This document shows positions 16,087 through 52,403 of a stretch of 64,000 bases of DNA, piece by piece. Both the position numbers and the translations under genes were made by a program. Source of the DNA: an uncultured Clostridia bacterium (GTDB lineage Bacteria; Bacillota; Clostridia; TANB77; CAG-508); the NCBI GenBank assembly GCA_944392105.1, contig CALXVM010000004.1:1-64000 (forward strand), in the 5' to 3' direction. Below the pieces are notes generated by a model, which worked only from the letters and a program-made list of their open reading frames with translations, had not been told where the DNA came from and did not search any database. Positions within the stretch are counted from its first letter, which is position 1. Each line of letters starts with the position of its first letter.

Positions 16087-16163
16087 TTGTTACCTCCGTA
16101 AGAACATAAACTTACAATTGAATTATAACATATGAGTTTTTTAAAAACAATATAAAAATATAG

Positions 16164-16199
16164 TTTTTATTTTGATAATAAGTAGTTGCGAGCAGCAAG
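16164..16199 (+). repeat. Dispersed 36-bp repeat, copy 1
   Basis: This is identical over 36 bp to 21384-21419, in the same orientation (core ataagtagttgcgagcagca). Here it stands without the rest of the element, upstream of the Ig-like gene. Confidence 0.85.
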
Positions 16200-16233
16200 A
16201 TACAAAAAACCAATACCCCTAAGGACTTATTAT

Positions 16234-16284
16234 ACGGAAATAAAAAATAGGTTTTAAGCATTTTCCCACTTAAAACCTATTTTT
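16234..16284 (-). terminator. Terminator of the 1311-residue adhesin gene
   Basis: A perfect 16-bp stem (16243-16258 with 16269-16284) is followed on the minus strand by TTTTATTT, 32 nt after the stop codon. Confidence 0.8.
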
Positions 16285-21282: not shown

Positions 21283-21446
21283 AACGAAAAAATAGGTAAT
21301 TCTGTAGTGACGCGCAGCGACCAAACGTAGCGTAAGCGAAGTGCGATTCGAGCAACTTTCTTTCTATCAAAATAAAAATGTATTTTTTATTTTGATAATA
21401 AGTAGTTGCGAGCAGCAAGTCACAAAGAATTACCTATTTTTTCGTT
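21283..21446. repeat. Nested hairpin element with a 36-bp dispersed repeat (copy 2)
   Basis: A perfect 21-bp outer stem pairs 21283-21303 with 21426-21446. Its 122-nt interior contains a second perfect 14-bp hairpin (21365-21378 with 21384-21397) and GC-richer flanks (gtgacgcgcagcgacc, gttgcgagcagcaagtcac). The outer stem carries the T-run of a terminator for the histidine kinase gene that ends at 21468. Positions 21384-21419 are repeated exactly at 16164-16199. The gap 21125-21467 contains no other feature I can see. Confidence 0.75.
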
Positions 21447-50513: not shown

Positions 50514-51083
50514 ATGAATGAAGATATGTCTAATTTAATTAATAAATTTAGTTCCATGTTAAAGAATAACGAAATACCTTCTGAACTTTCTAATGCCGTA
50601 AAAGGTCTTTCTAATAAGTCTAACAATAACGACGTATCTTCTAATTCAGAAAATTTAAGTACTTTTGGAAATTCAAATAATATAGATTTTAGTAATATTA
50701 ATATAGATGCTATAAAGAAACTATTTGAACAGAGTAATAATAATACCTCGAATAATACCAATGGCAACTCAAATACTGCTAATAATAGTTCAAATAAAAA
50801 TAATGTAAACGCCAGTACTTTTGCCGAAGAAAATACTACCTCTTCTATTGATGATAATTCCTCTTTTAATTTTGATATAAATACTATGTTAAAAATGAAA
50901 TCAATAATTGATGCTATGAATAACCAAAAAAATGATCCTAGGGCTAATCTTTTAAAGTCTTTAAAACCATACTTAAAAGAAAGTAGAAAAGAAAAAGTAG
51001 ACCAATACATTAAAATTTTTAGCATGGAAAAAGTTTTTGAACAATTTAATCCTCTTGGTGGTGATAAAAAACATGATGTATAA
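50514..51083 (+). CDS. Asn/Ser-rich linker protein with conserved helical C terminus, unknown function
   Basis: This 189-residue soluble protein has a short N-terminal helix (about 1-30), a low-complexity Asn/Ser-rich middle (about 34-115), and a conserved-looking C-terminal helical region (about 122-180) with MKSIIDAMNNQKNDPRANLL and SLKPYLKESRKEKVDQYIKI. The latter pattern (LLxSLKPYLxxxRxEKVD) recurs, from memory, in small clostridial proteins without known function. AGGAAAGG lies upstream of the ATG. Its stop overlaps the start of the next gene (51073-51083), so the two are translationally coupled. Confidence 0.65.
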   Translation: MNEDMSNLINKFSSMLKNNEIPSELSNAVKGLSNKSNNNDVSSNSENLSTFGNSNNIDFSNINIDAIKKLFEQSNNNTSNNTNGNSNTANNSSNKNNVNASTFAEENTTSSIDDNSSFNFDINTMLKMKSIIDAMNNQKNDPRANLLKSLKPYLKESRKEKVDQYIKIFSMEKVFEQFNPLGGDKKHDV

Positions 51084-51576
51084 TTACCCGTTTTTCTCGT
51101 TTCCTAATTTTAGAAATTATAGACCACACAATATTACGCCTAATAATCAGATGCAACATTTTAATTATGAACAAATAAATAAGCAAAAGCATCTCAATAC
51201 ATTAGCAGAGTTACCAAGAGAAAATACAAAATACAATAAAAGACACACCAAAAAAGAGGATAAAATTGCCGTCAAAGCAAGCTTTAACGACAACAATAGC
51301 AATAACAATAATAAAAACAATAATACTACTAATAATACTAATAAAAATAACTATAACAACAGCAAAAATTATAACAAAGCAAAAACTATAGAAAATGCAG
51401 GAATTACTAAAAACGCAAGAACTACTCGAAATGAAACTGATGTGCTTTTTGAAATATTTGGTATAAAGCTTTATTTTGACGATATTTTACTTATTTCACT
51501 TATATTTTTCTTATATAGTGAGGGCGTCAAAGATGATTATTTATTTATTTCTCTAATTTTATTACTACTAAGTTAG
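51073..51576 (+). CDS. Asn-rich protein with C-terminal membrane helix, unknown function
   Basis: This 167-residue protein starts with an aromatic segment (MMYNYPFFSFPNFRNYRP), continues through an Asn/Lys-rich low-complexity stretch (about 70-110) and ends in a conserved-looking unit FEIFGIKLYFDDILLISLIF followed by a second hydrophobic block ending LILLLLS (about 128-167). The end is probably a hairpin or single span in the membrane. The start at 51073 overlaps the stop of the upstream gene and has GGTGGTG 9 nt before it; starts upstream in this frame lie inside the neighbour. The three genes 50285-51576 form one transcript, ended by the hairpin at 51611-51723. Confidence 0.62.
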   Translation: MMYNYPFFSFPNFRNYRPHNITPNNQMQHFNYEQINKQKHLNTLAELPRENTKYNKRHTKKEDKIAVKASFNDNNSNNNNKNNNTTNNTNKNNYNNSKNYNKAKTIENAGITKNARTTRNETDVLFEIFGIKLYFDDILLISLIFFLYSEGVKDDYLFISLILLLLS

Positions 51577-51610
51577 GCTAAATATAGCATTTAAATTAGC
51601 GTCTAAAAAT

Positions 51611-51723
51611 AAAGCAAAAAATATAGTACTTTCTAGTGAGACAAGGTCTTAAAATTTGTGAATACAAATTTTAAGTAGCCGTGCGTCCGTAGTCGAACAA
51701 GAAAGTACTATATTTTTTGCTTT
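51611..51723. repeat. Nested hairpin element between convergent genes (bidirectional terminator-like)
   Basis: A perfect 24-bp outer stem pairs 51611-51634 with 51700-51723. Inside it a perfect 12-bp hairpin pairs 51648-51659 with 51664-51675, flanked by agtgagacaagg and gtagccgtgcgtccgtagtcg. The outer arms carry A6/T6 runs, so it could end transcripts from both sides: the small-gene set and the mre operon. Confidence 0.75.
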
Positions 51724-51764
51724 ACTTTTACTATTTTTATATCTATGTTTTTTGATATTATTTT

Positions 51765-52388
51765 TTATTCAACTATAATCTCGTCTTTATCATTTACATA
51801 TGCTGATGTTTTTATATCAGTATTATATTCGTCTAATGTATTTATTGCCATTTCTTTTACTATATTGGCTATTCTAAGCTGTGGTGCTTCTATTGATGCT
51901 GCAGCAATTATAGCTTCTTTATTTCCCTTTGCTCCTGCATGTGCTAGCCCTCTTAAAATTCCGACTACAACTACATTTTCTCCTGCTACAACTTCTGCTC
52001 CTGCATTTACATCTCCTAAAATGACTAGACTTCCTTCAAATTCCACTCTTTGTCCAGATCTTAAAGAGCCTCTATGAAATTTAGTTTCTGATGTAGCAAT
52101 GTCCTTATTAAATGTCTTTTTTATTCCATGTAATCCTAATATTTTTGGACTGTCAAAGTCAATTTTAGTGTCTATTATTGATTTTGTAAGATTTTGTATT
52201 TCTTCCATTTCTTTGTTTTTTAAAACTTTTCCTGAAATAAGTAAAGGAGTATTGTCATCTTTGTATAGTTTCTTAAAGTCTTTTAACTTCTTTTTTAAGT
52301 CTACTAATATTTCTTCTTGTGTTGCATCTTCTGCTATTTTTACTATAACTTTGCCTTGTCTTGTGTTAATACTAATACAACTTTCCAT
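51765..52388 (-). CDS. minC: Septum site-determining protein MinC
   Basis: This 207-residue inhibitor of FtsZ assembly keeps division away from the poles. The N-terminal domain (about 1-95) is the FtsZ-acting part. The C-terminal right-handed beta-helix (about 105-207) shows FHRGSLRSGQRVEFEGSLVI, GDVNAGAEVVAGENVVVVG and GLAHAGAKGN, the MinD-binding dimer part. The ATG at 52388 is used because GAAAGG precedes it. It is the last gene of the mre-PBP2 operon, 15 nt after the PBP2 stop. In many Firmicutes minD follows at once; here the operon ends at a hairpin, so minD must be elsewhere or absent. Confidence 0.93.
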   Translation of the reverse strand: MESCISINTRQGKVIVKIAEDATQEEILVDLKKKLKDFKKLYKDDNTPLLISGKVLKNKEMEEIQNLTKSIIDTKIDFDSPKILGLHGIKKTFNKDIATSETKFHRGSLRSGQRVEFEGSLVILGDVNAGAEVVAGENVVVVGILRGLAHAGAKGNKEAIIAAASIEAPQLRIANIVKEMAINTLDEYNTDIKTSAYVNDKDEIIVE

Positions 52389-52403
52389 TAATATCAAACC
52401 TTT

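Follow-up and report, generated by a model that had tools for sequence, protein, structure and literature searches.

What is the nested hairpin at 51611-51723 of the window, by which we mean the whole 64-kb stretch analysed here of a 1.5-Mb genome in 31 contigs (G000)? An initial annotation had offered two answers, a small element that targets terminator loops or a structured RNA. Our findings bear out the first in part: the hairpin is one copy of a short non-coding repeat family, F1, of gut Clostridia. The element is real, multi-copy, structured and probably mobile, a palindrome of a broadly familiar type with an unusual split between a shared, flipping core and matched, largely site-particular arms. 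On the forward strand, a perfect 24-bp inverted repeat (left arm 51611-51634, right arm 51700-51723) encloses a 65-nt loop, and both this geometry and the perfect 12-bp inner hairpin described earlier are confirmed by the sequence and by the inverted-repeat listing. Pairing extends outward to 51604 and 51730 with one mismatch, and the repeat 51604-51730 has the top score of the 12 listed in the window. Comparison of copies identifies the loop (51635-51699) as the F1 core, the GC-richer portion that other copies have in common. The segments flanking the inner hairpin, formerly read as single-stranded, are mostly paired: GTGAGAC (51636-51642) prolongs the outer helix by pairing with GTCGAAC (51692-51698) around two central G.A mismatches, and TGC-GTCC-GTA forms a small side hairpin (51682-51691). 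The inner terminal hairpin itself (51648-51675; arms 51648-51659 and 51664-51675) is AT-rich, with 12 perfect base pairs and a GAAT loop. Folded as RNA, positions 51590-51745 reach -51.5 kcal/mol versus -22.6 ± 3.2 kcal/mol in shuffled sequence (z = -8.9), a value equalled in none of 200 shuffles. The neighbours are convergent, minC on the reverse strand (51765-52397; Pfam MinC_C) and, on the other side, a forward-strand open reading frame lacking a Pfam match (51037-51576). Rfam gave no match in the 64-kb window at gathering scores, and a simple terminator scan, which admits loops of 3-8 only, flagged neither this hairpin nor the one at 21283-21446.

The latter, also on the forward strand, had been singled out for its like layout in a different sequence; the likeness is real, and the element (model match 21295-21434) belongs to a separate sequence family, F2. 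Both families are dispersed. A search of G000 with the F1 element returned ten full or nearly full copies, itself counted, and one partial copy, while an F1 covariance model (R2, from the 12 sequences of alignment A2) found at least 12 matches with 12 candidates scored. For F2 the same genome holds nine good copies or model matches, plus fragments. The F2 model (R1) was built from the 39 sequences of alignment A1, chosen from 46 cores by omitting near-identical orthologs. Across the bacterial family it has matches in 115 of 292 genomes, spread over 21 of 39 genera, and R2 matches 14 of 292, in seven of 39 genera; because 11 or 12 candidates were scored per genome, copy numbers of both families are lower bounds. 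Two of the weakest R2 matches displayed (L372 and L373) are unlike F1. Nine loci carrying F1 or F2 had no Rfam match at E values up to 0.1. A pattern scan of named genomes yielded 101 stretches, and among the 80 listed those from outside Clostridia resemble, by eye, single chance matches; plasmid and phage collections gave no match, and none of seven stretches with exact pattern matches in viral contigs fits either model. In being shorter than about 200 bp, non-coding and dispersed, the element resembles a MITE. Altered forms were also seen: a truncated F2 copy at 16148-16209 of the window retains just the core's right part, and a plain 16-bp hairpin follows directly downstream (16243-16284); F2 left-core motifs stand in tandem, some 149-150 bp apart, at L324:1798-2116 and L297:7577-7747; and a hairpin at L126:12483-12550 keeps its 21-bp arms intact around a 26-nt loop that resembles a deleted F2 core.

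Both F1 and F2 form a single long helix whose core is branched and richer in GC, and the pairing within that core is maintained among copies. In F2, 92.8% of the pairs in the specified 27-pair structure are standard across the 39 sequences, and 16 pairs have changed on both sides; one of them is C-G in 24 sequences and T-A in the remaining 15 of the 39, with intermediates absent. Its covariation score is 0.418 versus 0.135 for shuffled alignments, with none of 500 shuffles reaching it, and F1 scores 0.257 versus 0.112 (again 0/500, 12 sequences); since shuffling ignores relatedness, these counts are not probabilities. In F1 the pairs of the core helix covary, and three pairs of the inner terminal hairpin change on both sides together. 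The pairs of the side hairpin are kept with no both-side changes, one of them permitting G.U (6/12). Invariant mismatches lie within the helix and suggest that it is a shape that is recognised.

The outer arms of F2 match within a copy, whereas those of different copies are mostly unrelated. Over 39 F2 copies, left arms compared with their own reverse-complemented right arms score a mean of 18.5, versus 7.5 between copies and 7.0 after shuffling, and 6.3% of between-copy comparisons reach 12. When 214 within-genome pairs (42 copies) were compared, the arms were at chance level in all 14 pairs whose cores were at least 93% identical (93-99%); L023 and L025, for instance, have cores 99.1% identical. 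Thus, either the core moves without its arms, or the cores were made alike afterwards. Some F2 copies in the closely related congeners G024, G025 and G027 do share arms, as a subfamily. In F1 (10 of 11 copies parsed) the self score is 18.6, that between copies 9.5 and that of shuffled arms 6.2, the inner part being partly common to copies and the outer part variable; a shared inner stretch is what one would see were the element to carry part of the arm along. By eye, ATATAGTAATTTTG and similar inner motifs recur in the arms of several copies of both families. The conserved terminal inverted repeats of a MITE were not found, F2 outer arms being mostly unrelated between copies and F1 copies sharing the inner arm only. 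Among 995 aligned pairs, F2 arm mismatches comprise nine G.T and six A.C, with no wobble excess; the sets used for arm pairing, arm mismatches and tandem-site orientation left out near-identical orthologs. Elsewhere in the genome, short matches to F1 arms showed no hairpin at the five loci displayed (L015, L017-L020). A short-loop hairpin with arms like those of the window's F1 copy does lie at an unrelated site in G019 (L083:1475-1525), between a dGTPase-like gene and dnaG (names by eye).

Sites without the element exist in relatives, as had been anticipated, and seven could be read. Six of these core-less sites lack both arms and the seventh keeps one, so that at six of seven the arms come and go with the core. 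The short-loop hairpin with the same arms, predicted by the initial annotation as the empty state, was found at none of the seven. The idea of an element that targets terminator loops is partly upheld: what the copies have in common is indeed the core and not the arms, but no empty terminator of the predicted form was seen. Nor was a clean target duplication or junction seen at the aligned empty sites. At the window's own site, no hairpin separates the two genes in G002, and copies of G000 on contigs C11 and C10 have no counterpart there; at the C10 site G002 has a plain terminator-like hairpin with different arms, which G000 carries as well, beside the element. Two further F1 sites of this genome pair were left out, their alignment being too poor. 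L107 of G025 is absent with its arms from G024 and G027, L120 of G024 is absent from G025, L067 of G025 is absent from G024, and at L079 of G025 the left arm alone is kept by G027. Flank identity makes G025 and G027 the closer pair at two compared loci (L054/L076/L113 and L053/L069/L105), and L107 therefore looks like a gain in G025, with independent losses possible. At the minC 3' site, G011, G001, G018 and G019 (L133, L138, L146, L150) seemingly carry other long-loop hairpin elements, by eye unlike F1 and F2. The initial annotation had named a freely diverging loop, with neither copies nor empty sites, as the outcome that would speak against its proposal; copies and empty sites both exist, and the loop is conserved and structured.

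Where the site is occupied in more than one species, the core is often inverted. The comparison covered 13 F2 loci, each occupied in two or more of G024, G025 and G027. At seven, the arms are the same but one genome has the core turned round between them (L062/L063; L053-L105/L069; L108-L109/L077; L111/L112; L117/L118; L123/L130; L219-L129/L218), and at six the orientation agrees. This count merges three analyses by locus, by hand, with the distant G000 copy L022 excluded; an automated script had missed the inversion at L117/L118 and left L076/L113, which aligns in the same orientation, unmatched. F1 offered one locus for a comparison of G000 with G002 (L009/L082), and its core is likewise inverted. 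A plain hairpin adjoining an F2 copy (16-bp arms resembling those of the family, 10-nt loop) has also flipped. Six unrelated hairpins taken as a control kept their orientation, a set too small to separate passive from family-specific flipping, and another control row scored as inverted proved to be the inner hairpin of an F2 core. The flipping may be passive or may need an enzyme, such as the dedicated recombinase of a site-specific inverton.

Overall, the F1/F2 element is probably mobile. We give an even chance to its being a short, non-coding, palindromic repeat, MITE-like or REP-like, whose structured core is the spreading unit between inverted arms largely owned by the site. On this model, the spreading core would comprise the mismatch-bearing helix, the side hairpin and the AT-rich terminal hairpin, and the arms would form a bidirectional, terminator-like hairpin directly behind genes, with a putative role in termination. 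The core may have spread through the genome by a trans-acting enzyme, or may have been kept alike by gene conversion; between the arms it turns over and flips, the core would itself move actively, and some process would have to create the arms and keep them matched. The closest competitor, which we regard as a distinct though less than even prospect, treats the whole unit as the element: the arms would be its own terminal inverted repeats, drifting in each copy and matched by recombination, flipping or fold-back repair, with core identity due to gene conversion. The loss of both arms at six core-less sites is in its favour, as are the recurrent inner arm motifs of both families and the above-chance similarity of F1 arms, and arm mismatches free of wobble bias are what upkeep at the DNA level would give. 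However, the arms look stable between sister species and are nevertheless unrelated between copies whose cores are 99% identical; drift alone cannot explain both, and gene conversion of the cores must therefore be added.

The position of the copies relative to genes bears on whether a transcript is involved. None of 57 copies lies inside an open reading frame; 17 are convergent, 37 tandem and three divergent (in partly overlapping sets, two of 79 and one of 27 copies fall inside a mechanically called frame). At 33 tandem sites the copy lies a median of 32 nt from the upstream gene's 3' end and 110 nt from the 5' end downstream, and the core, in model direction, opposes transcription in 28 of the 33 (F2 23/27, F1 5/6). 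The same bias is seen in partly overlapping sets, at 34 of 45 loci found by pattern, where the G000 row is nearly empty as the pattern missed most G000 copies, in 13 of 16, and, weaker, at eight of 12 family-wide loci; the sites used for context and orientation are not fully independent, some orthologs remaining, and p-values for the orientation are for that reason given no weight. Either selection acting on the transcript or insertion coupled to the direction of replication would fit this bias. The bias also leaves room for the earlier suggestion of a structured RNA, here understood as a selected RNA module of a 3' UTR or terminator, as do the covariation in both families, the 3' position and the G.U permitted at the F1 side hairpin. 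We nonetheless consider such a module improbable: the cores invert frequently at orthologous sites and are variably present, the arms have no G.U excess (which is where the F2 mismatches tell against the suggestion), Rfam has no match, the bias is weaker in the family-wide loci, and the direction of genes may just track that of replication.

As for the mobilising enzyme, it is very unlikely that an IS200-like (Y1), RAYT-type transposase moves F1 and F2 as REP-type elements. A GTAG-like tetranucleotide adjoins the core, and Y1_Tnp proteins occur in 21 of 30 members of the genus, with two in G000; yet G024 and G025 have no Y1_Tnp match despite their many F2 copies, and a hand tally of the congeners common to the two search listings puts Y1 in 11 of 16 F2-positive versus five of six F2-negative genomes. 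Moreover, no nested hairpin like F1 or F2 was listed in the 5-kb regions that surround the two Y1 genes of G000. The Y1 gene of G027 does have an F2 copy some 2 kb away, which we take as chance. Beside one of the G000 Y1_Tnp genes there is a 30-bp perfect hairpin with a 7-nt loop (L168:2256-2322), possibly the REP family of that transposase, and a similar GGGACAGGTC-type sequence adjoins some F1 copies. An IS200-type transposase seems not to be required. A search for long F2 versions with an internal gene gave nothing convincing, its right-end pattern being too strict and flagging many ordinary copies, and no autonomous partner or form of F1 or F2 was found. Finally, it is hardly credible that the assembly of palindromes from short reads produced the inversions: although the compared genomes are many-contig drafts and most arms measure about 17-23 bp, the orientation is biased at 3' ends and a flipped 10-nt loop between 16-bp arms fits within one short read.

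F1 and F2 have their nearest known kinds in YPAL/RU-2, SPRITE, Correia and REP elements, each compared here through the parts of the published descriptions that we consulted. YPAL/RU-2 of Yersinia, about 168 bp long, is intergenic, has internal inverted repeats and shows empty and filled sites (PMC2229807), all of which, compared by description only, recall F1 and F2. Its insertion targets span or abut dyad symmetry (PMC2229807); F2 arms are particular to the copy, yet none of the seven core-less sites keeps paired arms. In contrast to F1 and F2, YPAL/RU-2 is not AT-rich, has a continuous reading frame and makes target duplications of 3-26 bp, none of which were seen here, and loop flipping is absent from the portion of the description consulted (PMC2229807), whereas F1 and F2 cores flip. 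SPRITE of Streptococcus pneumoniae, an AT-rich, terminator-like repeat with an 18-bp duplex, similarly lies near gene 3' ends (PMC3049150); unlike F1 and F2 it is followed by a T-rich tract, the consulted text mentions no nested GC-rich core, and its range is given as pneumococcus and S. mitis, with great rarity in other streptococci (PMC3049150). Correia elements of Neisseria are also small and reported to invert (PMC10969869), but they are said to have 24-bp terminal repeats, 5'TA ends and duplications (PMC2229807) and are located upstream of genes. GTAG-type REPs share with F1 and F2 their intergenic palindromes, mostly unidirectional or convergent positions and the GTAG tag, but are described as 20-40 bp long with stems of 5-13 bp and an association with RAYT (PMC3733652), while F1 and F2 exceed 100 bp and no RAYT link was found. 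Accordingly, a tag beside a 20-40 bp palindrome, as in REPs and REPINs, is not what F2 presents, its tag being degenerate and the element longer than 100 bp, and linkage to a RAYT (Y1_Tnp) was not observed. Small inversions in the chloroplast trnH-psbA spacer provide a parallel for the flipping, in that a loop there flips between inverted repeats 18 bp or more in length; as far as the description consulted goes, they concern one plastid spacer and no dispersed repeat family (PMC2903610). No published description of F1 or F2 was found in the literature searched, whose coverage is thin for subscription journals.

F2, which fits no Rfam family, extends through 115 of 292 genomes of the bacterial family. 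Small palindromic repeats are common in bacteria; to our knowledge, how such repeats move and how their arms are matched are mostly unexplained. In F1 and F2 the core and the arms act independently, with F2 cores up to 99% identical set in unrelated, well-matched arms and the core flipping between species. This independence makes two questions testable, namely whether an enzyme recognises the hairpin by its shape, and what keeps the inverted arms identical. More tentatively, and at odds we place clearly below even, F1 and F2 may represent a superfamily of mobile hairpin cassettes across this bacterial family in Clostridia, in which a donor passes on the core only, the long matched arms come from the new site or are constructed there, and the core then flips between them. 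If true, insertion would be guided by hairpin shape rather than by sequence, or would write its own inverted repeat.
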